DNA of 64,000 bases, from the NCBI RefSeq assembly GCF_030389965.1, contig NZ_CP128401.1, positions 310,001 through 374,000 on the forward strand. The letters run 5' to 3'. This document shows positions 12,145 through 62,895 of the stretch, in pieces. Source of the DNA: Candidatus Chlorohelix allophototropha. Lineage in GTDB: Bacteria > Chloroflexota > Chloroflexia > Chloroheliales > Chloroheliaceae. Numbering within the stretch: the first letter of the stretch is position 1; each line of letters begins with the position of its first letter. The notes beneath the pieces were generated by a model. It was not told the DNA's origin, did no database searches, and saw only the letters and a list, made by a program, of their open reading frames with translations. The translations under genes and the position numbers were made by a program.

Positions 12145-12404
12145 CTTTTTCACACTCTGATTATAGCACTTGCTAATATTCCATTCAATGTAACCAGACC
12201 GTTTGCGTAAATACAGGGGTGATAGGATAGAGGTAGGAGAAGAGGACAAATTCCTGGAATTTATAGCTTATGACAAGGAGGATTGTCGAAAGCTACGCCA
12301 AAATGTGCTATAATTAACCCCATCACAGAGGGAGAATAGCCCTATAAGGGAGGCACCTTCTACCTATTAGATAGAGGATATTGCGATACAGTTAACTTGC
12401 TGGA
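12145..12404. other. Intergenic region between dndB and the integrase
   Basis: Divergent promoter region. On the plus strand TATAAT at 12310-12315 could be the -10 of the integrase gene, but the nearest -35-like TTGTCG is 20 bp away. I see no gene here. Confidence 0.35.
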
Positions 12405-22145: not shown

Positions 22146-22700
22146 GAGGCTTTTTTGCCGATTTGGCTAATAATGGCTGGCTTTCAGACCTACTGCACTG
22201 TTTGCCGGAAAATACTATACAAAACACCGGCTAACCAGCTTGTTACAGAGGTGCTACACCTTCCTACTGATTCTCCCTCAGCATCACTACATTTCAGCTC
22301 TCCCTTCCCTCCGGCAAAGATTTTTCCCGACACTTTCCACATACTTTCTACCGCTAAGGAATATTAGAGACAAATATCCGCCTACCCCCTTTCCTCCAGT
22401 ATCATTTCTACTAGAAAGCTTACTACCCACCCATTATCGCAACCGGCGCTTTTGCACCAAGCTTTGTTCCCAACTTTCTTTCTTTGCCATAGCCGGTAAC
22501 TATCGGTCAATACTTCCAGACCCTTCGCTTTTGTCGCGCCTACGAGGTAACTCGCGCTGGCGCTCGGCAAGTAATCGGGGACTAAAGCAAAACCTATCGG
22601 AACACATCCGGGGAATTGAGAGACTGCTCCCCAACCCGGACTAAAGCTGATTAGGAATTGAGTTTAGCCACCATAGCTTACCTTATGGAGGTGAGTCTGG
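22146..22700. other. Stretch without a supported gene
   Basis: An open frame at 22240-22644 (plus strand) is rich in Pro, Ser and Leu with no start signal and no domain, so I do not call it. The last 40 bases hold the ribosome-binding site of the peptide gene. Confidence 0.4.
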
Positions 22701-27545: not shown

Positions 27546-27558
27546 TGTCGCTAAAAAT
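27546..27558 (-). promoter_or_regulatory. Regulon box b upstream of the pseudokinase
   Basis: A perfect ATTTTTAGCGACA on the minus strand, 220 bases upstream of the pseudokinase ATG. It is the only copy lacking a TANNNT hexamer at the 27-bp distance. Confidence 0.55.
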
Positions 27559-27570
27559 ATGTAGGGGGGT

Positions 27571-40221: not shown

Positions 40222-41725
40222 GTAACAAATCAGCCAGGGTCAGTTGACGAGGCTGGTAGACTAAAATAATGACACCTGCGCAAGAACTAGAACAACTTAG
40301 AATAGAAAATGCCCAATTGCGAGAACAACTGACTTCACGGGATGCCTTGGTTACCCAACTGATAGAGCGAATTCAAACCCTTGAAGCCCGGCTCTCTCAA
40401 GATAGCCATAATTCTTCCAAACCGCCTTCTTCCGACGAGTTTAAGCGCTCGCCCAAAAAACGCAGCTTGCGCAAATCCAGCGGTAAGAAACCGGGTGGTC
40501 AACCTGGTCACGAGGGTCAGGCTCTTAAACAAAGCGAAAACCCAGATGCAGTGATTGCGCATCTGCCCACCACCTGTGAAAAGTGCCAGACTGACTTAAC
40601 CAAAGAAGCAGCGCTACCTCACTTCGAGCCTCGTCAGGTTTTTGAGCTGCCTACTCAACTCAAACTGCACGTCACCGAACACCGCACTTACAGCAAAAAG
40701 TGTCCTACTTGTCAGACTGTTACCAAAGCCAAATTCCCGCAGTCCGTCAAGAATTGGGTGCAATACGGACCTGGGTTTCGGGCTCTGGCAGTTTACCTGA
40801 TCACTTATCAACTGCTGCCTTATGCCCGGGTGTGCGAGCTACTTAATGAAATCTACAGCGAAAGTCTTTCACCCGGCAGTTTGGTCAATATGATAGCGGA
40901 GTGCTACGAGCAATTGGCTGAGCCAGAAAAAACCATCAAGACAGCGCTTACCCAGGTCAAAGTGTTACATTGCGATGAAACCGGGTTGTACGTAGAAGGC
41001 AAGCGCCACTGGTTGCACGTAGCCAGCACACCACATTTAACCCACTATGCTCACCATTTACGGCGAGGTAGTAAAGCCACAGACGAGATTGGGATTTTAC
41101 CGGCTTTCCAGGGCGCAGCGATCCACGACGGTTGGTCTAACTATCTGCGCTATGCCTGTACCCACGGTCTGTGTAACGCCCATCATCTCAGGGAACTTGC
41201 TTTTGTCTACGAACAACTCAAGCAGGCGTGGGCGGCTGAGTTCACCACCCTTCTTGTGGACTTGAAAGAAGAAGTGGAAGTCGCCAGGGCTAGGTCTGAA
41301 ACCAGTTTAAGCAGTGCACGGTTAGCGCATTTCGAAGAGCGCTACCAGCAATTGATCGCACAGGGTCTGGCAGCTAATCCTCCTCCCCAGGGTGGCTGGC
41401 CTTGTGGAAAACGGGGCAAGCCCCGGCAGAGCAAGCCTAAGAACTTACTGGATCGGCTGGATAAACAGCGTCATCAAGTGCTGCTGTTTGCCTACCGTTT
41501 TGATGTGCCTTTTGATAACAATTTAGCCGAGCGTGATATTCGGATGGTTAAAGTGCAACAAAAAGTTTCAGGTTGTTTTCGCAGTCAGGAGGGTGCCAGC
41601 TTCTTTTGTCGGATAAGAGGCTACCTTTCCACCATGAAAAAGCAAGGTGAAAATTTGTTGGTAGCACTCCTTGACACTTTTTGTGGGCATCCTCCCCTTC
41701 CCAAGCTTTTGGTCTGAACTGTTAC
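40222..41725. mobile_element. IS66-type element, copy 1, 1504 bp
   Basis: Begins GTAACAAATCAGCC and ends GGTCTGAACTGTTAC, imperfect inverted repeats with GTAAC termini, flanked by TAAGATTT. One long transposase gene, as in the single-gene ISBst12 branch of IS66. The same-length copy 2 lies at 47668-49171. It sits in the signal peptide of NHL gene 5. Confidence 0.9.
40269..41717 (+). CDS. IS66-family transposase (copy 1)
   Basis: 482 residues: N-terminal coiled coil, a basic PPSSDEFKRSPKKRSLRK segment, zinc ribbon (CEKCQTDL and CPTCQTV), then a DDE core with LHCDETGLYV, AIHDGWSNYL and NNLAERDIRMVKVQQK. All catalytic residues are present. The first ~28 residues differ strongly from those of copy 2, while the remaining 450 are nearly identical, so the two elements are mosaics of a common body with different 5' ends. 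Confidence 0.9.
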   Translation: MTPAQELEQLRIENAQLREQLTSRDALVTQLIERIQTLEARLSQDSHNSSKPPSSDEFKRSPKKRSLRKSSGKKPGGQPGHEGQALKQSENPDAVIAHLPTTCEKCQTDLTKEAALPHFEPRQVFELPTQLKLHVTEHRTYSKKCPTCQTVTKAKFPQSVKNWVQYGPGFRALAVYLITYQLLPYARVCELLNEIYSESLSPGSLVNMIAECYEQLAEPEKTIKTALTQVKVLHCDETGLYVEGKRHWLHVASTPHLTHYAHHLRRGSKATDEIGILPAFQGAAIHDGWSNYLRYACTHGLCNAHHLRELAFVYEQLKQAWAAEFTTLLVDLKEEVEVARARSETSLSSARLAHFEERYQQLIAQGLAANPPPQGGWPCGKRGKPRQSKPKNLLDRLDKQRHQVLLFAYRFDVPFDNNLAERDIRMVKVQQKVSGCFRSQEGASFFCRIRGYLSTMKKQGENLLVALLDTFCGHPPLPKLLV

Positions 41726-47667: not shown

Positions 47668-49171
47668 GTAACAGTTCAGACCAAAAGCTTGGGAAGGGGA
47701 GGATGCCCACAAAAAGTGTCAAGGAGCGCAACCAACAAGTTTTCACCTTGCTTTTTCATGGTGGAAAGGTAGCCTCTTATCCGACAAAAGAAGCTGGCAC
47801 CTTCCTGGCTGCGAAAACAACCTGAAACTTTTTGTTGCACTTTAACCATCCGAATATCACGCTCGGCTAAATTGTTATCAAAAGGCACGTCAAAACGGTA
47901 GGCAAACAGCAGCACTTGATGACGCTGTTTATCCAGCCGATCCAGTAAGTTCTTAGGCTTGCTCTGCCGGGGCTTGCCCCGTTTTCCACAAGGCCAACCA
48001 CCCTGGGGAGGAGGATTAGCTGCCAGACCCTGTGCGATCAATTGCTGGTAGCGCTCTTCGAAATGCGCTAACCGTGCACTGCTTAAACTGGTTTCAGACC
48101 TAGCCCTGGCGACTTCCACTTCTTCTTTCAAGTCCACAAGAAGGGTGGTGAACTCAGCCGCCCACGCCTGCTTGAGTTGTTCGTAGACAAAAGCAAGTTC
48201 CCTGAGATGATGGGCGTTACACAGACCGTGGGTACAGGCATAGCGCAGATAGTTAGACCAACCATCGTGGATCGCTGCGCCCTGGAAAGCCGGTAAAATC
48301 CCAATCTCGTCTGTGGCTTTACTACCTCGCCGTAAATGGTGAGCATAGTGGGTTAAATGTGGTGTGCTGGCTACGTGCAACCAGTGGCGCTTGCCTTCTA
48401 CGTACAACCCGGTTTCATCGCAATGTAACACTTTGACCTGGGTAAGCGCTGTCTTGATGGTTTTTTCTGGCTCAGCCAATTGCTCGTAGCACTCCGCTAT
48501 CATATTGACCAAACTGCCGGGTGAAAGACTTTCGCTGTAGATTTCATTAAGTAGCTCGCACACCCGGGCATAAGGCAGCAGTTGATAAGTGATCAGGTAA
48601 ACTGCCAGAGCCCGAAACCCAGGTCCGTATTGCACCCAATTCTTGACGGACTGCGGGAATTTGGCTTTGGTAACAGTCTGACAAGTAGGACACTTTTTGC
48701 TGTAAGTGCGGTGTTCGGTGACGTGCAGTTTGAGTTGAGTAGGCAGCTCAAAAACCTGACGAGGCTCGAAGTGAGGTAGCGCTGCTTCTTTGGTTAAGTC
48801 AGTCTGGCACTTTTCACAGGTGGTGGGCAGATGCGCAATCACTGCATCCGGGTTTTCGCTTTGTTTAAGAGCCTGACCCTCGTGACCAGGTTGACCACCC
48901 GGTTTCTTACCGCTGGATTTGCGCAAGCTGCGTTTTTTGGGCGAGCGCTTAAACCCGTCGGAAGAAGGCGGTTTGGAAGAATTATGGCTATCTTGAGAGA
49001 GCCGGGCTTCAAGGGTTTGAATACGTTCTATCAGTTGGGCAATCAAAGCTGCCTGTGAAGCGGCTTTAGCTTCAAGTTGGGCGTAATCGTTTTGAAGTTG
49101 GGCTAATTGCTCTTCTAATGTCATTTTATTAGTCTACCAGCCTCGTCAACTGACCCTGGCTGAATTGTTAC
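47668..49171. mobile_element. IS66-type element, copy 2, 1504 bp, inverted relative to copy 1
   Basis: Ends GTAACAGTTCAGACC and GTAACAATTCAGCC (read inward), flanked by the 8-bp duplication CAATAATG at 47660-47667 and 49172-49179. Exactly as long as copy 1 but in the opposite orientation, so the segment between (about 41.7-47.7 kb) could invert by recombination. Confidence 0.9.
47676..49124 (-). CDS. IS66-family transposase (copy 2)
   Basis: 482 residues, the same domain order and DDE motifs as copy 1 and nearly identical after residue 30. The N-terminus MTLEEQLAQLQNDYAQLEAK differs from copy 1 in most positions up to about residue 28, a mosaic junction. PPSSDGFK here replaces PPSSDEFK in copy 1. 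Reading direction is opposite to the host gene. Confidence 0.9.
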   Translation of the reverse strand: MTLEEQLAQLQNDYAQLEAKAASQAALIAQLIERIQTLEARLSQDSHNSSKPPSSDGFKRSPKKRSLRKSSGKKPGGQPGHEGQALKQSENPDAVIAHLPTTCEKCQTDLTKEAALPHFEPRQVFELPTQLKLHVTEHRTYSKKCPTCQTVTKAKFPQSVKNWVQYGPGFRALAVYLITYQLLPYARVCELLNEIYSESLSPGSLVNMIAECYEQLAEPEKTIKTALTQVKVLHCDETGLYVEGKRHWLHVASTPHLTHYAHHLRRGSKATDEIGILPAFQGAAIHDGWSNYLRYACTHGLCNAHHLRELAFVYEQLKQAWAAEFTTLLVDLKEEVEVARARSETSLSSARLAHFEERYQQLIAQGLAANPPPQGGWPCGKRGKPRQSKPKNLLDRLDKQRHQVLLFAYRFDVPFDNNLAERDIRMVKVQQKVSGCFRSQEGASFFCRIRGYLSTMKKQGENLLVALLDTFCGHPPLPKLLV

Positions 49172-50165: not shown

Positions 50166-50199
50166 CGGGAAATGCCCTTATTGGCTTTTCGCAGAAAAT

Positions 50200-50245
50200 A
50201 TTTTTAGCGACAAATTTAACGCAAAGAGTGTGGATGGCTTATACT
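50200..50245 (+). promoter_or_regulatory. Regulon box f and -10 of the kinase-WD40 operon
   Basis: Perfect ATTTTTAGCGACA (50200-50212), 27 bp, TATACT (50240-50245). Transcription should start near 50252 and lead into the structured leader. Confidence 0.75.
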
Positions 50246-50251
50246 AATAAC

Positions 50252-50437
50252 TAATCGCAGACCTTTGCGGTCTGGAGAAAGAGCAATCAGGACTGGTGGC
50301 TGTAGCCCTGATGTAGCCGGAGATGTACCCAATCTACCGGATCAGTAAGTGCAAACTTATTGCTTGTCGGGTCGCAAGACCCTGCCACGTGGTGACCCTG
50401 CCGGTACAGTCAGGGTCGCTTTTCTCGTTTCTTGGCT
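50252..50437 (+). ncRNA. Structured 5' leader RNA, copy 1 (candidate cis-regulatory RNA)
   Basis: Stems: 50258-50274 (CAGACC/GGTCTG), 50286-50312 (ATCAGG/CCTGAT), 50317-50340 (CCGGAGAT/ATCTACCGG with one bulge), 50346-50359 (TAAGT-GCAA-ACTTA), 50369-50382 (GGGTC-GCAA-GACCC), and 50394-50417 (GACCCTG/CAGGGTC) followed by TTTTCTCGTTT. Two stems close with GCAA tetraloops, and the last resembles a Rho-independent attenuator. The gene starts 94 bases later. Nearly the same sequence lies before the kinase-TIR gene (+6006), and base changes between them fall mainly in loops or keep pairing (ATCAGG to GTCAGG by wobble). No known riboswitch consensus fits. Confidence 0.65.
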
Positions 50438-50510
50438 TCCGACGCAGTGAATAATCGATACAGGTTTAGGACACAGCAATGTTGGTGCCAGCTAGGATGA
50501 GCAGAGACAT

Positions 50511-52802
50511 ATGAATGAAACCGTCTATGCTGTAATAGAACTCGAAGCGGGCTATCAAGTAGATAAGTATATCCTTGAAGAACGGCTTGGCAGCGGCGGA
50601 TTTGGTGAAGTGTGGCTGGCACGCCACCAAAACAGGAATATGGAAGGCAAGAAATATGCCGTCAAGTTCCTATCTATTCCCGATCTTAGCGTAAAGAACC
50701 GCTTTGAACGGGAAATTAAAATTCTGGCGCAGCTAGATAGCAACCCTCATATTATCAAAGCTACCGATTGCGGCGAAATCATTGGAACTATTCAGGAAAT
50801 AGACAAAGCCACTGAAAAAGTTATCGGCGAATGGAAAAAGCAAATAATTCCTTTTCTGGTGATGGAGTATGCCGTAAAAGGCGATCTCTCAAAACTGGTG
50901 GGGAAAATAGCCCCTGCGGAAATAGCCGGATATTTGGCACAAATCGCCGACGGTCTGGATTTTGCCCATAAACATGGCTATATTCACCGGGACTTGAAAC
51001 CGGGCAATCTGCTACGGGATAGCCAAAACGTAATAAAAATAGCCGACTTCGGGATTGCGCATGCGGAGGGAAGCACTTCAACTAGAACCGGCAGGGGCTT
51101 AGGAACTGCCACGCATATGGCGCCGGAACAATTTGAGGATGCCAAGCGGGTGGGCAATACCGTCGATATATACAGCTTGGGAGTGGTAGCCTTTCAATTA
51201 CTTACAGGCAGCTTGCCATTTTTGGGCGCAAATTATGTCCAGTTGGCTAATGCCCATCTGCAGAAATCGGTACCACTTCTGAGCAAGTACCGGATGGGCT
51301 TGCCTTCCGGCTTACAAGCGGTAATCGAGAAGGCGATGGCGAAAGAGGCGAGCACCCGCTACCAAACGGCAAGAGCCTTTGCGGCGGCATTCGAGCGGGC
51401 GCTTGTACCGGAAAAGCCTGCCCCCGTAGTGCCACCCACCGAGGCTTATTCTGCGGATGCTCGGAGAGGATACCCACCCCCTAACCCGGTAAAACCGCCG
51501 CAATATGAGTACCCAAACCCATCGCCCCCAGTTTACCCACCTGTAAACCCCCGCATAGAGGCGGAAAAGCCGCGCCCCTATCAACCGCCCCAAGCAGAAA
51601 AAACCCGCCCCCCACGCCGGAGAATAAAACTGGGATGGCTAGCGGGAATCGGCTTGTTGGTGGTTGCGGTGATAGTGGCGCTGCTGACCCTGAATGCAAG
51701 CGGCGGAAGCGCTACCCCTACCCCAACAACTGAGGCTACCACAGTAGTGACTACAACCACCGCCCCTACCAAAGCGGATACCACCGCGGCAGCCACCGCT
51801 ACGCCAATTGCTGCGGCTACCACAGTAGCGATTGCAACCACCGCCCCTACCAAAGCGGCTACTACTGCGCCCGCCACGACAGTAGCTACAGCAACCCCAC
51901 TCCCTCCAAGCGCCTCTTTCAAACTCCTCAACACCCTCAGCGGACATTCTCACTGGGTCGAATCGGTAGCGTACAGCCCTGACGGCAAAACCCTCGCCAG
52001 CGGGAGTTTGGATAACAGCATCAAGCTGTGGGATGCGGTTACCGGCAAGGAACTGCGCACTCTCAGTGGTCACACTAGCGCTGTCGAATCGGTAGCATAC
52101 AGCCCGGACGGCAAAACCCTCGCCAGTAGCGGGAGTAATGATTACAGCATCAAGCTGTGGGATGCGGTTACCGGCAAGGAACTGCGCACCCTCAGCGATC
52201 ATGACTATGTCAGGTCGGTAGCGTACAGCCCTGACGGCAAAACCCTCGCCAGCGGGAGTGGGGCTAACAGCATCAAGCTGTGGGACATTGCCACGGGCAA
52301 GGAACTACGCACCCTCAGCGGTCATTCTTACGCTGTCGAATCGGTAGCGTACAGCCCTGACGGCAAAACCCTCGCCAGCGGGAGTGGGGATAACAGCATC
52401 AAGCTGTGGGACACCGCGACGGGCAAGGAACTGCGCACTCTCAACGGACATTCTAACTCTGTCTATTCAGTAGCATTTAGCCCTGACGGCAAAACCCTCG
52501 CCAGCGGGAGTGGGGATAACAGCATCAAGCTGTGGGACAGCGCCACGGGGAAGGAACTGCGCATCCTCAGCGGACATTCTAAAGCGGTCTATTCGTTAGC
52601 CTTTAGCCCTGACGGCAAAACCCTCGCCAGCGGGAGTGGGGATAACAGCATCAAGCTGTGGGACAGCGCCATGGGGAAAGAACTGCGCACCCTCAGCGGA
52701 CATTCTCAACTTGTCAAATCGATAGCGTTCAGCCCGGACGGCAAGAGCCTCGCCAGCGGGAGTTGGGATAAAACCATCAAGCTGTGGGGGGTGGGAAGTT
52801 GA
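50511..52802 (+). CDS. Membrane Ser/Thr kinase with WD40 propeller sensor
   Basis: 763 residues. Kinase domain (15-285) with glycine loop GSGGFGEV, KKYAVKF lysine, HRDLKPGNLL and IADFGIAH, all catalytic residues intact. A Pro-rich linker, a membrane helix (WLAGIGLLVVAVIVALL, about 375-392), a Thr-rich linker and exactly seven WD40 repeats follow (466-763; e.g. VESVAYSPDGKTLASGSLDNSIKLWD), enough for a closed propeller, placed outside the cell. It likely senses an extracellular ligand and signals inward; FHA proteins of the same regulon are plausible readers. First gene behind box f; a kinase-FGE gene follows after 51 bases. Confidence 0.92.
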   Translation: MNETVYAVIELEAGYQVDKYILEERLGSGGFGEVWLARHQNRNMEGKKYAVKFLSIPDLSVKNRFEREIKILAQLDSNPHIIKATDCGEIIGTIQEIDKATEKVIGEWKKQIIPFLVMEYAVKGDLSKLVGKIAPAEIAGYLAQIADGLDFAHKHGYIHRDLKPGNLLRDSQNVIKIADFGIAHAEGSTSTRTGRGLGTATHMAPEQFEDAKRVGNTVDIYSLGVVAFQLLTGSLPFLGANYVQLANAHLQKSVPLLSKYRMGLPSGLQAVIEKAMAKEASTRYQTARAFAAAFERALVPEKPAPVVPPTEAYSADARRGYPPPNPVKPPQYEYPNPSPPVYPPVNPRIEAEKPRPYQPPQAEKTRPPRRRIKLGWLAGIGLLVVAVIVALLTLNASGGSATPTPTTEATTVVTTTTAPTKADTTAAATATPIAAATTVAIATTAPTKAATTAPATTVATATPLPPSASFKLLNTLSGHSHWVESVAYSPDGKTLASGSLDNSIKLWDAVTGKELRTLSGHTSAVESVAYSPDGKTLASSGSNDYSIKLWDAVTGKELRTLSDHDYVRSVAYSPDGKTLASGSGANSIKLWDIATGKELRTLSGHSYAVESVAYSPDGKTLASGSGDNSIKLWDTATGKELRTLNGHSNSVYSVAFSPDGKTLASGSGDNSIKLWDSATGKELRILSGHSKAVYSLAFSPDGKTLASGSGDNSIKLWDSAMGKELRTLSGHSQLVKSIAFSPDGKSLASGSWDKTIKLWGVGS

Positions 52803-52853: not shown

Positions 52854-55800
52854 TTGGCAAAGTTCAGTGAGGGCGAAATAGTCGGCAGCTACGTGCTGAA
52901 AGAGAAGATCGGGGAAGGGGGTTGGGGCGAGGTCTGGTTGGCGCGCCATCCAACTTTATCCAACAAAGCGGTTGCAATCAAATTTTTGTTGCACCTACGT
53001 GAAGATATGCAGGAACGCTTTAAGCAAGAGGCGGTTATACTAGATAAATTACGGGAGAACCCGCATATAATCACGGTAGAGGATATCGGAGAGCATCGCG
53101 GTATAAGCTACTTCCTGATGCAATACGCCCCCGGTGGTGACCTGTCGGATAAGATCGGCAGTGGCATGTCCCCCGAAGTGGTGGGGAACTATTTGAAGCA
53201 AATTGCCAACGCCCTAGACTTTGCCCACGCGCAAGGGATAATCCACCGCGACTTGAAGCCGAGCAATATACTTTTCGATGCGGCGGGCAGCTTGCTGTTG
53301 AGCGACTTCGGGATAGCCCATGACGGAGGTAAACCGCTGACAGATACGAATGAGCGGTTGCGAACGCCGGAATATTGCGCGCCAGAGCAGTTCAAGCGTG
53401 CCAAAGACTTGAGCGCCACGGTGGATATATATGCGCTAGGAGCAATGACCTTCCAATTGCTGACCGGACGGTTGCCCTTTGGGGGAAGACCGTCAAAAAG
53501 CATCGTAGCGCTAGCGTTGGAGCATCTACAAAGCCCGGTACCACCCTTGAGCAAGTACCGGATGGGCTTGCCGAGTGGTTTGCAAGTGGTAATCGAGAAG
53601 GCGATGGCGAAAGAGGCGAGCGCGCGTTACCAATCGGCGAAAGCCTTTGCGACGGCATTTGAGCAGGTGTTGGTGAATGAGCCACCCCTCCTAGAAGATA
53701 CTGAAATTATTACCCCGCCACCTATCCAAGAAATTAAAATTATTACCCCGCCGAATGAATCGGAACAATATGGCAAGTATGCAGAGGAATTCGGCAATGC
53801 CACCGCGGGATTTCAAGCTCAGTTGGAATATTACGAGCAAGCGGTGAATGCAGTTGGCGAAAGCGTACTGAGCAAGGTATTTGCGGTAGAGTCTAGGCTG
53901 GTGGAGGAAAAGCTAGAGAAGCTAGAGAATATACTGAGGAAATGCAAAGCTCTGCCGAGACAGTCAGAAATACAGGGTAAGGTCAGCAAGCTGGAAGAAA
54001 TCTTTATAGAATGTAAGACGGATTATGAGGGAATAAATAGCCTTGTAAATAACCGGATACGGCTAGATACGCGGAAACAGCGTGCAAGCGGATTGAAAGA
54101 GCGGTTTAAAGCGGCGGAAGAGGATTACCGGAAGCGCTTGGGTACAATGACAACGCAAATCGAGCAAGGAGAGGAATACCTTGCCGAGCTAGATAAAGGG
54201 GTAAATACCCAATTGTTGCGCTTGTCAAGCAGTTTCAAGCGGACGGTGGAGAGTAGTATCTTGGTAGTATTCGAGGCAATAGTTGAGGAGAGCGGTGGCG
54301 AAGAAGATTTTGGGGATATGCAAAGAGACTATCAGGAATTAAGCAAGCGATACGAAGAGATTCAGGTGCGGATAAAACAGGTTGCGGACAGGGCGGAAGA
54401 AGTGACCGCCCGAAACAAACGAGAGAAGGAACAAATCGGTAAAGCGGAGGAACTTCGCCTAAGTATGGAGAGTGTTACTGCTGAAATGGTGAAAACTCTA
54501 GAGCGTTTCGAGGGACAAATCAAGAGCGCGACGGGGAATGCAACCGGGCTAAAAGAGGAATATGAAAGAGAAATAACCGGCTTAAGCGAAGGGCTAAAAG
54601 AAGCCGAAAGGCGGCGAGGGGAACTTGCGGGTCTAGCGCAACAAGGGGAGAGCATCGTCGTGAGGAGCGTCCTTTATGAAATGTTGTCGAGCCTCGAAGG
54701 CGGTATCTCCCGCTGCCGAAGCAGTTATGAGCGGGTAGCCAAGTTAGCGAGAGAGCGGGTGGAGCAGCAACTGCGAAGTGAGCAGGCAGCGGCAGCCCAA
54801 AAGCAGTGGGCGGAAGAGGAGTGGCGATTAGGAGAGGAAACGGCGGCGCAAAAACAGGCAGTGACGGCAGCGATGCAAGAATATCGGACAGCGGTGGAGA
54901 AGCCGGCGGGTCAAGCAGCGGGGTTGGAAAAAATATTCCGGCAGAAGTGGGAGCGGGTGACAGAGGGCTTTACCGCACTGGGGCAGCTAAACACGCGGTG
55001 TAAGGAGTTGGGAAAGCGGGTTATAGAACCGGGGCAAAAGCAGCGGGTTAATGGGCTTGCAGAGGAACTAGAGAGAGCATTGAGCGGGTATCGGCAAGAG
55101 CTAGCAGTATTGGACGGCAAGGCAGAGGCGGCGGTAAAAGTGGCGAGCGAAGTGACGCTATTGCTTGAAGAAATCGCTATGCCTAGCACCACCCACGCCC
55201 GCCGTGCTGAAATCGGGGACAGGTTGAGCGCAATCGGGGACACCCGAAAAGGCGTTGGCGTGGGAAAGGATGGCATCCCGGACATCGCGTGGTTGGCAGT
55301 AACGCCGGGAGGGAAGCTGGACATTAAGGGAACAGCTTTTAAGAGAACAGCTTTTGAGGTGCAACCCTTCTACATCGGGCAGTATCAGGTAACGTATGCC
55401 CAGTATGAGGCATTTGTGCAGGCAAGGGATGGCTACCAGCAGTGGGAGTGGTGGCAGGGGTACCAGCCGCAAAAGCTGTACGAGCAAAATCAGAAAGGCG
55501 CCAGCAACCCGCGGGATAGTATATCTTGGTATCAAGCGGTGGTGTATGGGCGGTGGCTGAATAAGCGGATGCAGGGGAGGGAGTTTCCGAATCCGAGTGG
55601 GAGCGGCAGTGCGATGATAATCGGGAAGAATGCGGAGGTGCGGTTGCCTACGGAATGGGAATGGCAGTGGGCGGCACAAGGTGGGCAAGAAGCTCGGAAA
55701 TACCCGTGGGGGGCATGGCAAGAGGGCTACGCTAACACGGATGAAGCGGGCTTGAAACGAACAATGGCGGTGGGGCTGTACCCGCAGGGGGCGGCGAAAT

Positions 55801-56033
55801 GCGGGGCGCAGGACATGAGCGGGAACGTGTGGGAGTGGTGCTTGAACAAGGGTGAGAAGCCGAAGGAGGTAGCGCAGGACGATAGCCATGATTCGAGAGG
55901 GATGCGGGGCGGGGATTTCAGCGGCAATCGAGCTGATGCGTCCTGTGCGTCCCGCGGCTACAATATCCCTTACCGCGATTTCAGCCGTGTCGGGTTTCGG
56001 TTGGTGGTTTGTTCCGCTAACGCGCCCCTCTGA
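52854..56033 (+). CDS. Ser/Thr kinase with coiled coil and C-terminal SUMF1/FGE-like domain
   Basis: 1059 residues, starting at TTG with GAGG seven bases upstream. Kinase domain: GEGGWGEVW, HRDLKPSNILF, LSDFGIAH. A long coiled coil (about 300-790, Glu/Lys/Leu-rich) is followed by a formylglycine-generating-enzyme-like domain (PFYIGQYQVTYAQYEAF, DSISWYQAVVYGRWLN, RLPTEWEWQWAA, SGNVWEWC, GFRLVVC). The cysteines that bind copper in true FGE are replaced (GGDFSGNRADASC), so it is probably a binding or sensor domain. There is no evident membrane segment, so the protein is likely cytoplasmic. Confidence 0.88.
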   Translation: MAKFSEGEIVGSYVLKEKIGEGGWGEVWLARHPTLSNKAVAIKFLLHLREDMQERFKQEAVILDKLRENPHIITVEDIGEHRGISYFLMQYAPGGDLSDKIGSGMSPEVVGNYLKQIANALDFAHAQGIIHRDLKPSNILFDAAGSLLLSDFGIAHDGGKPLTDTNERLRTPEYCAPEQFKRAKDLSATVDIYALGAMTFQLLTGRLPFGGRPSKSIVALALEHLQSPVPPLSKYRMGLPSGLQVVIEKAMAKEASARYQSAKAFATAFEQVLVNEPPLLEDTEIITPPPIQEIKIITPPNESEQYGKYAEEFGNATAGFQAQLEYYEQAVNAVGESVLSKVFAVESRLVEEKLEKLENILRKCKALPRQSEIQGKVSKLEEIFIECKTDYEGINSLVNNRIRLDTRKQRASGLKERFKAAEEDYRKRLGTMTTQIEQGEEYLAELDKGVNTQLLRLSSSFKRTVESSILVVFEAIVEESGGEEDFGDMQRDYQELSKRYEEIQVRIKQVADRAEEVTARNKREKEQIGKAEELRLSMESVTAEMVKTLERFEGQIKSATGNATGLKEEYEREITGLSEGLKEAERRRGELAGLAQQGESIVVRSVLYEMLSSLEGGISRCRSSYERVAKLARERVEQQLRSEQAAAAQKQWAEEEWRLGEETAAQKQAVTAAMQEYRTAVEKPAGQAAGLEKIFRQKWERVTEGFTALGQLNTRCKELGKRVIEPGQKQRVNGLAEELERALSGYRQELAVLDGKAEAAVKVASEVTLLLEEIAMPSTTHARRAEIGDRLSAIGDTRKGVGVGKDGIPDIAWLAVTPGGKLDIKGTAFKRTAFEVQPFYIGQYQVTYAQYEAFVQARDGYQQWEWWQGYQPQKLYEQNQKGASNPRDSISWYQAVVYGRWLNKRMQGREFPNPSGSGSAMIIGKNAEVRLPTEWEWQWAAQGGQEARKYPWGAWQEGYANTDEAGLKRTMAVGLYPQGAAKCGAQDMSGNVWEWCLNKGEKPKEVAQDDSHDSRGMRGGDFSGNRADASCASRGYNIPYRDFSRVGFRLVVCSANAPL

Positions 56034-56205
56034 ACTCTTAGCCTCTGGCGCTCTTTTCTCTAAATTAACCCAAAGACCTAGGGGTAGGGAAAGGTCAAGG
56101 GGGAAAGGTAAAGAGAATTTCCGAAAGCGCGAAGCGCCGCAATATTTGGGGCAGGGGTAGGAGGGTAAATTTAGGAAGTTAATTCCTTTTCCCCTCGCAG
56201 AAAAT
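56034..56205. other. Intergenic region before the second leader
   Basis: Between the FGE-type gene and box g. No gene. The last bases (CGCAGAAAAT) repeat the sequence in front of box f, so the duplicated control region starts near 56197. Confidence 0.5.
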
Positions 56206-56251
56206 ATTTTTAGCGACAAATTTAACGGAATGGGTGAGGATGGCTTATACT
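56206..56251 (+). promoter_or_regulatory. Regulon box g and -10 of the kinase-TIR operon
   Basis: Perfect ATTTTTAGCGACA at 56206-56218, 27 bp, TATACT at 56246-56251. Same as box f, at +6006. Confidence 0.75.
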
Positions 56252-56257
56252 AATAAC

Positions 56258-56443
56258 TAATCGCAGACCCTCGTGGTCTGGAGATAGAGCAGTCAGGACT
56301 GGTGGCTGTAGCCCTGATGTAGCCGGAGATGTACCCAATCTACCGGATCAGTAAGTGCAAACTTATTGCTTGTCGGGTCGCAAGACCCTGCCACGTAGTG
56401 ACCCTGCCGGTACAGTCAGGGTCGCTTTTCTCGTTTCTTGGCT
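56258..56443 (+). ncRNA. Structured 5' leader RNA, copy 2
   Basis: Same six stems as copy 1 at a constant shift of 6006. In the first stem the loop reads CTCGT instead of TTTGC while both arms are kept. In the second, G replaces A opposite T, keeping a wobble pair. The change CACGTGGTG to CACGTAGTG is in the linker before the terminator-like stem (56400-56423), which is followed by GCTTTTCTCG. The kinase-TIR gene starts 84 bases downstream. Confidence 0.65.
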
Positions 56444-56506
56444 TCCGTGAATACTCGGTATTCCGGGTGGAATCAAGCGCATTATTTTCGGGATTAGCAG
56501 GGACAA

Positions 56507-59500
56507 TTGGCAAACGAGAAAAATTTACTAAAATCCGAAGGCAGGTTCGGTAAATATATTCTCGCCGAGAAGGTAGGACAAGGCGGTTGGGGTGAGGTGT
56601 GGTTGGCTACCAACGCTTGGATTCCCAACAAACCACCCGTCGCCATCAAATTTGTGCTGCGCCAAAGATCCCAGAAAGAATTGGAGCGTTTTGAACACGA
56701 AGTAGCCATTCTTGGCAAATTGTGGGGGCATCCTAATATTATTACCGCCGACGATTACGGTGAGCAGAACGGCATCCCCTATCTGGTGATGGAATATGCC
56801 CCCAACGGAGATTTAGCTCGCCGGATTGCACAAGGCTTATCTCTCGAATTGGTAGCAGATTATCTTGACCAAATCTCCAATGGTTTGGACTATGTCCACT
56901 CGCAAAAGCCCCACCCTATTATTCATCGCGACCTCAAGCCTAGCAATATTCTTTTCGGGGTAAACGATGTTCTGAAGTTGGCAGATTTCGGCATTGCCCA
57001 CGATGAGGATGTAACTTTAACCTACACCGGAATGAACCTCGGCACTCCCGAATATATGGCGCCTGAGCAGTTCACAGACCCCAGAGAAGTTACTCCCGCT
57101 GCCGACATTTACAGTCTTGGCATAATAACCTTCCAGATGTTGACTCAACAGCTTCCGTTTGGCTTCCGTATCAAAGGTGAAGTATCGGCGGGGGATGTGG
57201 AGATGGGGCATCGCCACAAACCAGTACCCGACTTGAAGAAACTCAGGTACGGCCTACCCTCCGGGCTTCAGGATGTGTTGGAAACAGCCCTCCATAAAAA
57301 CCCGGAGGAGCGTTTCCCCTCTGCCGGAGATTTAGCCCGACGGTTTCGGGAAGAACTGGGAAAAGCGCCGCTGATACTTCCTACCGAATTCTATTCACAG
57401 TCTGAGGCGCAAATCGCCGAAGAGAACCGTTTCAAACAACTCGAAGGGCTTGTCCAAAGCTTCAAAGTGGTAGAGGAGGATTTTCGGGAGCAATTCCAGC
57501 TTGTCTGGGATATGGTTAACACGCAGGAAGGTTCGGCGGAGACGCTGAAGGAGTTGTTTGAACTTCGGCTACAGGCGATAAGGGAGAAGTTGGAAGGCTT
57601 TAATCGCTATATTGCCGACTGTGAAGCGATTATAGCCCAAGTTCCTACCGATTCAGATAGCTCTTTGGAGCGGGAAAAGCTAGAGGCACGCGCTCAAGAA
57701 TTGCGCCAGAGCCTAGCTCAAAACGAGGAGCAAATCGGTAAGGCTGAAAACATTGCGCAGTTGCGGGTAGAACGCCAGTTGGAAGCGGAGCAACTGGAGC
57801 AGCGCGTTGCCGAGAGGGTGCAGCAAGGCGCTGAGCTAAAGCGGCAATTTGAAGCTGCCGAGATGGGTTTCGAGTTCCAATGGGCAGAAGCTAGCCAACT
57901 ACTCGAACTCAGCACAAGCTATTCCCCAGCGCTGGAACCAGAATTCGAGCAGAAACTAGCGCAACTGGAAGCTACTTCCCACCCAATTGAAGCGCTCTTG
58001 TCGGCTTTTGCCGTGCTGTTGTCACAGTGCGAAAGCGAAGAAGAACGCACCCGCCTAGAAGCAGGCTATCCGGAACTGGAAGGGCGCTACAAGGAAATCC
58101 AGAACAAGCTGGCGCTAACCCGCACCCAGTTTGGCGAGAAATTGGCAACGCTAAGAAATGAAGCAGAAGCAGCCGTCAGGCAGGCAGAGGCGCTCGCCAA
58201 AGAAGAACGTGCGAAAGAGCGGGCAGCTACGGCGGAACTACTCCGGCGCGGCTTTGAGAGTTTTACTACCGACTTGCTGAATTCTCTTGCCCGCTTCGAG
58301 GCGAAGGTAAATTCCGCTACCGGGAATCCAAACCAGCTAACTCAGGCTTTTGAAAGAGAATTAGCCATCCTAAGCGAGGCGCTTAAAGAAGCCGAAAGCA
58401 GGCGAGGGGCTTATGCGGCGCTGGCGCCACTAGCAGAGAGCAAAAACGAGGAAAATGCCTTATCCGAAGCGCTGGTGCAACTTGATGCCGCTTTGTCCCG
58501 CTGCCGGGCCGGTTATGAGCAGGCTTTCATGGCAGCCGGGCAGCGGGTGGAGCAGCAGCAGGAAATTGATAAGCAGTTTGCCGAGGAGCAAAAAAGGCTG
58601 GCTACGGAAGAGCAGCGCCTTGGGGAAGAAGCGGCGACCACTCGCGGGTTGGTTGAAGCAGCCCTGAAGAACTTCCAATTGGCTATCGAGAAAACTGTCG
58701 GTCAGTCTAATGAGCTAAAGGAGGCTTACGGCAAGGAAGAAAAGCGCATCGCGGGACTGATTGCCCAATTGGAACAGCTTTCTTCCGGGTATGAGAAGTT
58801 GACACAGCAAGCCCCTGAGCCAGCCCAAAAACAGCGCCTGAACCAGCAGACAAGCGATTTACATAGAGCGTGGCGCAATTACCAACAAGAGTTTGAGACG
58901 CTTTCTGGGAAAGCGGCAGTGGTAGTTAAAGGCGCCGCCGAGTATGAGCAGCGCCAACAAGAAGAGGCGGAAGCCAAACGACAGCAGCAACAAGCCACCG
59001 CGGCAAGAGCGACGAGAGCAGCCGAGATAAAGCGGGCTTTTGAGCAGACGGAACAGAGTTTCCAGCGCCAGCGCCAAGCGGTAGAGCAGATGTTGAAAAA
59101 CAGCCAAGGCTCTGCCGAAAAGGTGAAACAGGACTTTGCCGCCAAAAAAGCAGAGCTAGAGGGACTGCTTAAAAAGCTGGAAGCGAACCTGACGGCGGTT
59201 AACGAGCTGGCACAACAAGCCGCTACTGCCGAGGAGAAATCGGCTTTTGAACGCGAGAGGCAGCAACTCAAAGCTCGGGTGCAGGGATATCGTGAGCAAT
59301 TGGAAGCATTAGGACAGCTGCACCAAGCGACCGTTGATAGGCTGAAAACTCCGCCTGTGCCGGTGACTAAGCCTCTAATTCCGCCCACCGAACCCCTTAC
59401 CCCGGCGCTTAAAACCGAACCGCTTACTGCTCTCAAACCTAATATCGCAGGAAATGGGGCAGTTAAAGCGCCCCATAAGCGCCTCAAAGTCTTTCTTTGT

Positions 59501-60697
59501 CACTCCAGCAAAGATAAACCACAGGTGTTAGAGCTTTATAAGAAATTGAAAACGGTGAGTTGGATTGAGCCATGGCTTGATCGGGAAAACTTAATTGGTG
59601 GACAAGACTGGCAGTTGGAAATCAGAAGAGCGGTAGAAGCCAGCGATGTAGTGATCGTAGTCCTCTCCAATGAAGCGGTGACAAAAGCCGGCTTCGTACA
59701 TAAGGAAATTGCTTATGCCCTGGATATGGCAGAATTGCAGCCTGAAGGTGCAATTTTTATCGTGCCGACTAAAGTGGAAGAGTGCAAAATTCCTGATCGT
59801 CTTTCCCGCTGGCACTGGGTAGAGCTTTTCCAGAAAGATGGGTATGGGCGACTTCTTCGGGCACTTAGCAAACGGGCTGAAGATTTAGGGCTGTTTGATG
59901 AGCCTAAGCCACCCAAACCCATAAAGAACAACAAAATTTGGTGGTCAGCGGGTAGTTTGTTGGCTATTGCAACAATATCAGTGCTATTTGCTTTAAATCT
60001 GCTCGGTGGAACTCCCCAAACTCCTTCTCTCGCCACCGCCACGGTTGCTGCGACAGCCGCAACCACCGCTACCGATACTACTACTGCCACAGTATTGCCC
60101 ACTGCTACCATCTCAGCTACTCCAACTGTCGCAACTACGGTGTCGATTACGACAATAGCGCCTACTGCTACTGTCATCACTCCTTCGCCCACTCCCGGTT
60201 CTAGTCTTGCCCTCTTTGGAACCGGTACTACCCGCCGAGGTGATTTAACTCAAGTTACAACCGCAGATGTGGTTACAAGTTTCTCCGAGGGTGAGGAAAT
60301 CTTTGCTTACCTTAACTTTGATGGCGCCAGACCGGGCGTGGATGAAATCGGAGTTATTTTGATAGCCAATGGCAATCCGGTTTCAGAGAATAAATACACC
60401 TTACAGAAAAAGAGTGGATTTGTGCTGTTTTCGCTAGGCAAGCAGGGCGCTGGTACTTTCAGGGTGCAGTTCCGCTATAACGGCGCAATTATTGCGGACT
60501 GGCAGCCTGACTTCCGGGTAACAGCAGTTACTACCACGAATTCCGCTCCTGTGGTGGTAGTAAACACCCCTCGAACCACAACCGTCTTTGTGCCTACTAC
60601 GGCAGCACCTGTACCACCCACCCCTACGCCGATACAGCCTACGGCTATTCCGCAGGGTATTCCTACACCCACTTTTTGCCCACCGGGTTCCTGCTAA
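56507..60697 (+). CDS. Ser/Thr kinase-coiled coil-TIR membrane protein
   Basis: 1396 residues, starting at a TTG (TTGGCAA, like two neighbours). Kinase (about 10-280): GQGGWGEVW, HRDLKPSNILF, LADFGIAH. Coiled coil of about 650 residues (305-960). TIR domain (about 990-1130): VFLCHSSKDK, PWLDRENLIGG, SDVVIVVLSNEAV, and the HKEIAYAL block holding the glutamate used for NAD cleavage in enzymatic TIRs. A membrane helix near 1145-1165, a Thr/Pro-rich linker and an exterior beta-rich domain follow. The TIR lies before the membrane helix, so it is cytoplasmic. A kinase linked to TIR suggests signalling that ends in NAD depletion or scaffolding, perhaps defence; this is inference. Confidence 0.88.
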   Translation: MANEKNLLKSEGRFGKYILAEKVGQGGWGEVWLATNAWIPNKPPVAIKFVLRQRSQKELERFEHEVAILGKLWGHPNIITADDYGEQNGIPYLVMEYAPNGDLARRIAQGLSLELVADYLDQISNGLDYVHSQKPHPIIHRDLKPSNILFGVNDVLKLADFGIAHDEDVTLTYTGMNLGTPEYMAPEQFTDPREVTPAADIYSLGIITFQMLTQQLPFGFRIKGEVSAGDVEMGHRHKPVPDLKKLRYGLPSGLQDVLETALHKNPEERFPSAGDLARRFREELGKAPLILPTEFYSQSEAQIAEENRFKQLEGLVQSFKVVEEDFREQFQLVWDMVNTQEGSAETLKELFELRLQAIREKLEGFNRYIADCEAIIAQVPTDSDSSLEREKLEARAQELRQSLAQNEEQIGKAENIAQLRVERQLEAEQLEQRVAERVQQGAELKRQFEAAEMGFEFQWAEASQLLELSTSYSPALEPEFEQKLAQLEATSHPIEALLSAFAVLLSQCESEEERTRLEAGYPELEGRYKEIQNKLALTRTQFGEKLATLRNEAEAAVRQAEALAKEERAKERAATAELLRRGFESFTTDLLNSLARFEAKVNSATGNPNQLTQAFERELAILSEALKEAESRRGAYAALAPLAESKNEENALSEALVQLDAALSRCRAGYEQAFMAAGQRVEQQQEIDKQFAEEQKRLATEEQRLGEEAATTRGLVEAALKNFQLAIEKTVGQSNELKEAYGKEEKRIAGLIAQLEQLSSGYEKLTQQAPEPAQKQRLNQQTSDLHRAWRNYQQEFETLSGKAAVVVKGAAEYEQRQQEEAEAKRQQQQATAARATRAAEIKRAFEQTEQSFQRQRQAVEQMLKNSQGSAEKVKQDFAAKKAELEGLLKKLEANLTAVNELAQQAATAEEKSAFERERQQLKARVQGYREQLEALGQLHQATVDRLKTPPVPVTKPLIPPTEPLTPALKTEPLTALKPNIAGNGAVKAPHKRLKVFLCHSSKDKPQVLELYKKLKTVSWIEPWLDRENLIGGQDWQLEIRRAVEASDVVIVVLSNEAVTKAGFVHKEIAYALDMAELQPEGAIFIVPTKVEECKIPDRLSRWHWVELFQKDGYGRLLRALSKRAEDLGLFDEPKPPKPIKNNKIWWSAGSLLAIATISVLFALNLLGGTPQTPSLATATVAATAATTATDTTTATVLPTATISATPTVATTVSITTIAPTATVITPSPTPGSSLALFGTGTTRRGDLTQVTTADVVTSFSEGEEIFAYLNFDGARPGVDEIGVILIANGNPVSENKYTLQKKSGFVLFSLGKQGAGTFRVQFRYNGAIIADWQPDFRVTAVTTTNSAPVVVVNTPRTTTVFVPTTAAPVPPTPTPIQPTAIPQGIPTPTFCPPGSC

Positions 60698-60783: not shown

Positions 60784-62895
60784 TTGGCAAGGGAGTTGCA
60801 GATAGGGGATCAGTTCGGAAACTATAGCCTGATCCGGAAAATAGGGCAGGGCGGTTGGGGTGAGGTGTGGTTGGCGCACCACGTCAAATTGACCAATCGT
60901 CAGGTGGCGATTAAATTCGTGCTGCGCCCCCGTCCCAAAGAATTGCTGCGATTCGAGCACGAAGTGGAAATCCTCGACCGCTTGCGCCACAATCCCCATA
61001 TACTCAAGGCAGAAGATTTCGGGGAGCAAAATGATATTCCCTATCTGGTGATGGAATATGCTCCCGGTGGCGACCTTTCCCAACACATGAGGGGTTTGAG
61101 CCTACAGACGGTGGCGGATTATCTGTCCCAGATAGCCGATGCGCTGGATTATGCCCATGCTCAAAAGCCTAAGCCGATTATCCACCGCGACCTGAAGCCC
61201 ACCAACCTTTTGTTTGATGAACACGGCAAGCTGTTACTGGCTGACTTCGGGATTGCCCATGAAGATGATTACACTCTGACCTATTCCGCTACTAGCCTGG
61301 GTACGCCGGAATATATGGCGCCGGAGCAGTTCTTCGATGCCAAGCGGGTGGGTAAGGAAGCGGACATTTACAGTTTGGGGGTAATTGCCTTTCAGTTGGT
61401 GACGGGACGCTTGCCCTTTGGTAGCCGGGTGGAAGGGAGATCTTTCGGGGAACTGGAGATGGGGCACCGCAACCAACCCTTACCTCAAATTGGGCAGAAC
61501 AAACGGGAGTTGCTACCGACAGGCTTGCAAGCAACGCTAGAGAAAGCGATGGCGAAGGAGCCGAAAGATCGTTACCGGACGGCGAAAGCCTTTGCGACGG
61601 CATTCAAACAAGCGCTTGTGCCGGAAAAGCCCGCCCCCGTAACGCCGCCGCCCACTGAGGCTTATTCTGCGGATGAACGGAGAGGAAACCCACCGCTTAA
61701 CCCGGTAAAACCGCCGCAAAATTATTACCCAAACCCACCGCCTCAAGTTCCCCCACCTGCAAAGCCTCGTATTGTGGCGGATAAACATGGCATGTTTTCG
61801 TCTTCGAACCCCATGCAGATACATCATTCTTATTCTTATAGGAAAAGGAGGAATACTCTCTTCATGCGTTGGATAGCGGGAAGCGGCTTGTTGGTGGTAG
61901 CGGTGATAGCGGCGCTGCTGACGCTGAACACAGGCGGGAGGAGTACTACCCCTACGCCAATTGCCAAGGAAACAATAGTTACAGTCCCACCCCCCGCTTC
62001 AAGTGCTTCTTTCAAACTACTCATCACCCTCACCGGTCATTCTGGCGCTGTTTCATCGGTAGCCTTCAGCCCGGACGGCAAGACCCTCGCCAGCGGAAGT
62101 GATGATGGCAGCATCAAACTGTGGGACGCCGCTTCTGGCAACCTACTCAACACTCTCGCCGATCATTCTCTCCCTGTCAATTCAGTAACATTCAGCCCCA
62201 ATAGCAAAACCCTTGCCAGTGGAGGTGATGATAAAAACATCAAGCTGTGGGATGTCGCTACGGGCAAACTACTCAACACTCTCACTGGTCATTCCAATAT
62301 TGTCACATCAATTGTGTACAACCCAGATGGAAAGACCATCGCATCTGGAAGTGATGATACTAGCATCAAGTTGTGGGACACCGCTTCGGGCAAACTGCTC
62401 AACACTCTACAAGGGCATTCTAATATTGTCAGATCGGTAGCGTTCAGCCCGGACGGGAAAATCCTAGCCAGTGGAAGTTGGGATAACAGCATAAAGCTGT
62501 GGGACACCGCTTCGGGCAACCTACTCAACACTCTACAAGGGCATTCTAACGCTGTATGGTCAGTAGCGTTCGGCCCGGACGGGAAAATCCTAGCCAGTGG
62601 AAGTTGGGATAACAGCATAAAGCTGTGGGACACCGCTTCGGGCAACCTACTCAACACTCTACAAGGGCATTCTAACGCTGTATGGTTAGTAGCCTTCAGC
62701 CCGGACGGGAAGACCCTCGCCAGCGGAAGTGAAGATAAAAGCATAAAGCTGTGGGACACCGCTTCGGGCAACCTACTCAACACTCTACAAGGGCATTCTA
62801 ACGCTGTCAGATCGGTAGCTTACAGCCCGGACCGGAAGACCCTCGCCAGCGGGAGTATGGATAAAACCATCAAGTTGTGGGGGGTGGGAAGTTGA
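60784..62895 (+). CDS. Membrane Ser/Thr kinase with WD40 propeller sensor, second copy
   Basis: 703 residues from a TTG codon. Kinase: GQGGWGEVW, HRDLKPTNLLF, LADFGIAH. Pro-rich linker, membrane helix (WIAGSGLLVVAVIAALL, about 365-383), short linker, then seven WD40 repeats (about 410-703), ending IKLWGVGS like the protein at 50511. The two share a kinase-to-linker boundary (VIEKAMAKE or similar, then RYxTAKAFA, LVPEKPAPV), so they are duplicates. Three central repeats are nearly identical (LLNTLQGHSNAV), a sign of recent repeat amplification. The gene follows the TIR kinase by 86 bases and precedes another kinase by 51. Confidence 0.92.
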   Translation: MARELQIGDQFGNYSLIRKIGQGGWGEVWLAHHVKLTNRQVAIKFVLRPRPKELLRFEHEVEILDRLRHNPHILKAEDFGEQNDIPYLVMEYAPGGDLSQHMRGLSLQTVADYLSQIADALDYAHAQKPKPIIHRDLKPTNLLFDEHGKLLLADFGIAHEDDYTLTYSATSLGTPEYMAPEQFFDAKRVGKEADIYSLGVIAFQLVTGRLPFGSRVEGRSFGELEMGHRNQPLPQIGQNKRELLPTGLQATLEKAMAKEPKDRYRTAKAFATAFKQALVPEKPAPVTPPPTEAYSADERRGNPPLNPVKPPQNYYPNPPPQVPPPAKPRIVADKHGMFSSSNPMQIHHSYSYRKRRNTLFMRWIAGSGLLVVAVIAALLTLNTGGRSTTPTPIAKETIVTVPPPASSASFKLLITLTGHSGAVSSVAFSPDGKTLASGSDDGSIKLWDAASGNLLNTLADHSLPVNSVTFSPNSKTLASGGDDKNIKLWDVATGKLLNTLTGHSNIVTSIVYNPDGKTIASGSDDTSIKLWDTASGKLLNTLQGHSNIVRSVAFSPDGKILASGSWDNSIKLWDTASGNLLNTLQGHSNAVWSVAFGPDGKILASGSWDNSIKLWDTASGNLLNTLQGHSNAVWLVAFSPDGKTLASGSEDKSIKLWDTASGNLLNTLQGHSNAVRSVAYSPDRKTLASGSMDKTIKLWGVGS

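Follow-up and report, generated by a model that had tools for sequence, protein, structure and literature searches.

A structured, terminator-bearing leader stands in duplicate before two Ser/Thr-kinase operons on the 375-kb chromid of 'Candidatus Chlorohelix allophototropha' L227-S17, and from its sequence we judge it to be a real, constrained-looking element of what would be a chromid-specific regulon. The account we favor, with a probability of roughly 0.55, is that it acts as a cis-acting transcription-attenuation leader, and our best reading of its type is a lineage-specific, attenuator-type leader. It probably serves as an RNA gate on the two kinase operons, with two copies in one genome as the evidence; its status as a riboswitch is unproven. 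If it is an attenuator, an RNA-level gate would sit atop a dedicated promoter in a phosphosignalling regulon of eight promoters, carried on the chromid of a phototrophic, cultivated member of the Chloroflexota that has a type I reaction center. To our knowledge, bacterial Ser/Thr kinases are rarely gated by RNA.

The repeat and the operons behind it

The host genome consists of five circular replicons of 2.96 Mb, 2.45 Mb, 375 kb (the chromid), 241 kb, and 55 kb (PMC10972752). The window analyzed here comprises 64,000 nt (C3:310001-374000) of the chromid contig C3 (375,274 nt) in the five-contig assembly, and its features are compiled in Table 1. A direct repeat of 253 bp lies at 50189-50441 and, 6006 bp apart on the same strand, at 56195-56447, with 96% identity between the copies. 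From left to right it holds a 23-bp operator-like site, a promoter, the folded leader, and the terminator-like stem, and it is wider than the 186-nt leaders of the preliminary description, which are its right-hand parts. The repeat precedes only the two kinase operons and has no other copy in the 6.09-Mb genome (6,086,194 nt in total), where the rest of the sequence matches nothing more than a 23-bp piece at its left end. The preliminary description had called the leaders almost identical within dissimilar surroundings. Their near-identity stands (98% over 195 nt, with 6 differences within the modeled 175 nt), and the upstream flanks are indeed unrelated genes, but the shared sequence also spans the promoter, and the downstream flanks up to the start codons are weakly yet detectably homologous (none of 1000 shuffles reached their alignment score). 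A fifth kinase gene follows the last one listed in Table 1 and extends beyond the window end.

Table 1. Features of the repeat, the leader, the composite promoters, and the kinase operons (window positions unless marked C3)
Feature	Position	Strand	Basis or remark
Operator-like site, 23 bp (CGCAGAAAATATTTTTAGCGACA), copy 1	50190-50212	+	Pattern scan
Operator-like site, copy 2	56196-56218	+	Pattern scan
Sigma-70-like promoter TTAACG-N18-TATACT, copy 1	50216-50245	+	-10 exactly 27 nt past GACA, as at 7 other sites
Promoter TTAACG-N18-TATACT, copy 2	56222-56251	+	Promoter scan, composite pattern
Composite promoters, chromid	C3:12324, 332968, 340001(-), 342098, 347435, 360202, 366208, 375148		
Composite promoters, window	22968, 30001, 32098, 37435, 50202, 56208		
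Structured leader RNA, copy 1	50252-50441	+	Start inferred from -10
Structured leader RNA, copy 2	56258-56447	+	Folding, repeat alignment, covariance model
Hairpin P1	50258-50274	+	Loop differs at 3/5 nt between copies, stem same
P0 5' strand (GAGAAAGAGC)	50275-50284	+	Can pair with U-rich tail GCUUUUCUC (50418-50426)
Hairpin P2	50286-50312	+	3' arm 50305-50312; alternative partner 50409-50416 (candidate antiterminator)
Hairpin P3	50317-50340	+	Folding
Hairpin P4, GCAA loop	50343-50362	+	Folding
Hairpin P5, GGGUC-GCAA-GACCC	50369-50382	+	Folding
Terminator-like stem (GUGACCCUG/CAGGGUCGC), 9 pairs, loop 10, U-rich tail UUUUCUCGUUUCUU, copy 1	50392-50433	+	
Terminator-like stem and U-rich tail, copy 2	56398-56439	+	
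Kinase 1, Ser/Thr kinase with WD40 propeller, first gene of operon 1	50511-52802	+	Pfam
Kinase 2, Ser/Thr kinase with C-terminal FGE-sulfatase domain	52854-56033 (start may be 52878)	+	Pfam
Kinase 3, Ser/Thr kinase with TIR domain, first gene of operon 2	56507-60697	+	Pfam
Kinase 4, Ser/Thr kinase with WD40 propeller	60784-62895	+	Pfam

Eight promoters on one stretch of the chromid

The 23-bp site occurs at 4 places with at most 2 mismatches, every one on the chromid (0 in a reversed-pattern control), and its conserved position just upstream of the -35 region suggests that a chromid-specific activator may bind next to the -35. The composite pattern TTTTAGYGACA-N27-TANNNT matches 8 times genome-wide and never in the reversed control, and all eight sites fall on one 54-kb stretch of the chromid that runs across the numbering origin (332,968-375,191, plus the site at 12,324); none was found in the 30 related genomes scanned. 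The -35 region is poorly conserved among these promoters. The genes behind them encode NHL beta-propeller proteins, an FHA protein, a PP2C-type phosphatase, and the kinases of the two leader-bearing operons, and at another of the promoters an AAA ATPase gene and a kinase gene come after a first gene of unknown family, suggesting that the eight promoters may form a local phosphosignalling regulon specific to this stretch under a putative common regulator.

The leader is an insertion between promoter and gene in only two of the eight cases, those of the kinase operons. From the -10 to the start codon these measure ~265 nt (50245 to 50511) and ~255 nt (56251 to 56507), compared to roughly 15-130 nt at the other composite promoters, so that the leader amounts to an extra ~190 nt. 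Each leader lies, as in an attenuator, between a promoter-like site of the eight-member set and the gene it precedes, and promoter scans of both copies found no second promoter conserved between the terminator and the gene.

Boxes related to the operator-like site occur elsewhere on the chromid. A ninth box (CCCCCTACATATTTTTAGCGACA) at C3:337546 (window 27546-27568, minus strand) lies ahead of a kinase gene (27326-25443), with no clear -10 at the usual distance. Diverged relatives (ATTTTTACCGACACTTTCC, ACTTTTACCGACACTTTCC, and ATTTTTCCCGACACTTTCC), located at C3:16592 and C3:18963 (L010) and at window position 22320, may belong to the regulon as well or represent a second form of the site.

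Leader fold, terminator-like stem, and candidate switch

The leader folds better than its dinucleotide shuffles (z -2.9 for copy 1 and -2.3 for copy 2) into five hairpins, P1 to P5, two of which carry GCAA tetraloops, plus the terminator-like stem, in good agreement with the five or six stems originally described. Folding alone does not fix the strand because the z-score of the minus strand is at least as good, and it is the promoter, the GNRA loops, and an A-U to G-U change that favor the plus strand as the RNA. The minimum free energy structures of both copies (modeled 175 nt) contain an additional closing helix, P0, whose 3' strand is the U-rich tail adjoining the terminator stem; the A50279T difference is accommodated in this helix by a one-base bulge shift.

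The terminator-like stem with its T-rich tail, also pointed out in the preliminary description, obtains a good TransTermHP-style score (hairpin -11.4, tail 3.86) that is the same in both copies, and an intrinsic terminator with U-tail is in this way predicted before each start codon. Only 22 positions (~18 separate sites) on both strands of the chromid (375 kb) score as well, and 21 of them lie outside long ORFs even though such ORFs make up 76% of the sequence, indicating that the score picks out real-looking terminators. A strict scan missed the stem because its loop is 10 nt long. Its U-tract is interrupted (UUUUCUCGUUUC).

An 8-bp duplex of -13.2 kcal/mol is possible between the 3' arms of P2 (GCCCUGAU) and of the terminator (GUCAGGGU) and would give an attenuator-like layout. 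This duplex is not significant, since equally good pairing arises in 36 of 500 shuffles of the upstream sequence, and the antiterminator is for that reason a hypothetical one. In copy 2, folding predictions favor the antiterminator pairing at a transcript length of ~164-166 nt and the terminator thereafter; in full-length copy 1, the terminator fold is strongly favored (-67.5 kcal/mol versus -47.8 kcal/mol without the terminator).

In an attenuation mechanism built from these parts, a chromid-specific activator at the 23-bp site would activate transcription from the repeat's 5'-end promoter, and RNA polymerase would make a compact, multi-hairpin RNA of ~170 nt whose terminator would stop most transcripts by default. 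A signal (a small molecule, a protein, or some other cue) would refold the leader and let polymerase read into the kinase genes, possibly through capture of the terminator 3' arm by the P2 3' arm. Termination would be favored when P0 closes correctly on the U-rich tail, and through this pairing release of the tail would depend on how the leader as a whole is folded. Transcription, termination, switching, and an effector of the leader are all things that we infer from sequence. Points against attenuation are the two copies in one genome with no homologue found in the others searched, the minus-strand fold, the weak antiterminator, the strong preference for the terminator at full length, and the interrupted U-tract. 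A more specific proposal strikes us as rather doubtful, namely a class of riboswitches or protein-responsive attenuators restricted to Chloroheliales that would gate a Ser/Thr-kinase signalling island by the P2-arm switch, with P0, as the stem closing the aptamer, completed by the terminator U-tract. Where the preliminary description had proposed an attenuator or riboswitch deciding on transcription of the kinase operon, the structured leader, the shared promoter, and the terminator-like stem speak for the former, and the latter is not supported.

Homologues, constraint, and competing explanations

Rfam 15 (4227 families) yields no match in the window at the gathering threshold, in keeping with the earlier impression from visual comparison that no known riboswitch class fits, and at E<=10 only chance-level partial matches (E 5.5 and 8.8) fall in or near the leader. 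BLAST found no leader homologue in 200 relatives, and neither, weak matches aside, did a covariance model in these relatives and 400 genomes of the phylum (overlapping samples), though strongly diverged homologues could escape this model because it was built from two near-identical sequences. Its two best matches (G198 and G077) lie inside long ORFs and two further ones reach only 16 bits, and all four were judged to be chance; a short BLAST match in another genome (G128) falls, by eye, within a cytochrome-biogenesis-like reading frame. Four genomes of the same family yielded no leader homologue, nor is there one at those of their kinase loci that were scanned, including that of the closest kinase (in G002, 58% identical). 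The plasmid and phage collections yielded none either, exact patterns of 16-23 nt found only isolated stretches of ~16-21 nt without model support in genome and viral contigs, and no match in GTDB contigs was supported by the covariance model. The covariance-model search had been suggested at the outset, with homologues found only as identical duplicated DNA named as grounds for rejection, and the lack of matches outside the genome, which leaves no covariation to assess, counts against the riboswitch claim.

With transcription-attenuating leaders in general (riboswitch expression platforms and protein-responsive attenuators), the element shares a structured 5' leader between promoter and gene, a U-tailed terminator-like stem ahead of the start codon, and a possible alternative pairing of that stem's 3' arm, but it differs in having no known aptamer, no Rfam match, and no significant antiterminator, and in occurring as two copies in one genome with kinase genes downstream. 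Like the rare orphan riboswitch candidates that comparative genomics has turned up (reviewed, for instance, in PMC7266159), it is associated with one gene type and no known ligand; those candidates are conserved in sequence and structure across many genomes, whereas this one has no homologues. T-box and peptide-coded attenuators also have a terminator at the leader end, but the leader has no T-box sequence, no tRNA, and no credible leader peptide ORF. The T-box sequence is AGGGUGGNACCGCG; a T-box or tRNA-like leader was rejected on the lack of an Rfam match, of any tRNA found, and of this consensus on reading through the leader. Only one longer ORF begins in the leader (43 codons from an ATG at 50323). 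Its start codon abuts GGAG, with no spaced ribosome site; it shows one synonymous difference between the copies, and its C-terminus diverges past the repeat and is not shared.

Ten differences separate the two copies of the repeat, four of them in the 18-nt spacer between -35 and -10, three in the 5-nt P1 loop, and one each in a bulge, in an A-U to G-U change in P2, and in a short loop. The operator, the hexamers, and the P1 stem are free of differences, and no stem pair is broken anywhere. All six leader differences are thus in loops or bulges or preserve pairing, just as the preliminary description had it, and this pattern taken alone carries little weight (P about 0.07). Stronger is the concentration of 7 of the 10 differences in those 23 nt, which has a hypergeometric P of 2e-6 with the segments as given, and a scan that allows for the choice of windows gives P 0.007. 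The kinases behind the leaders are 43% identical compared to 96-98% for the leaders, a contrast that would fit constraint on the leader itself. Each of these kinases is nearer to a leaderless one (63% and 57% identity; the 63% is that of kinase 1 with the kinase at C3:8912, against 43% with kinase 3), so the leader appears as a module independent of kinase ancestry. Selection on the element seems to be the best account of the clustered differences and the identity taken together.

The identity could also stem mostly from recent gene conversion or copying between the loci, with the leader as a 5' untranslated region (UTR) without regulatory role. Patchy conversion has to be considered because the right 155 nt of the repeat hold 1 difference compared to 9 in the left 98 nt, as a conversion tract might leave, and the lack of homologues elsewhere and a leader distribution at odds with kinase relatedness point the same way. 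We find this explanation unlikely given that the promoter spacer and the P1 loop hold most of the differences, with zero in the operator, the -10, and the P1 stem between them, and that a plain UTR would have no need of a terminator-grade stem. A rather doubtful alternative sees two copies of a small-RNA gene with a trans-acting product, the kinases being expressed by read-through or from another promoter. The repeat does end just beyond the terminator and holds a complete transcription unit, and the structure is compact and closed by P0, but both copies share strand and position, 60-70 nt ahead of a kinase start, the promoter directly precedes protein genes at its other sites, and past the terminator no promoter is conserved between the copies. 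That the leader works after initiation on mRNA stability or translation (as a protein-binding or 5'-protecting element) and not via termination appears quite improbable: the interrupted U-tract would suit it, as would the stable 5'-terminal GNRA hairpins, but terminator scores of this type are almost confined to noncoding DNA, and whole-UTR folds reveal no start-region pairing conserved between the copies.

Matches of the kinases in a defense library (PD-T4-6 and similar) were read as generic kinase-domain matches. Three nearly identical IS66-family transposases are found in and around the island (window 40269-41717 and 47676-49124, and L010:17255-18703), and two of the three appear to interrupt propeller genes.
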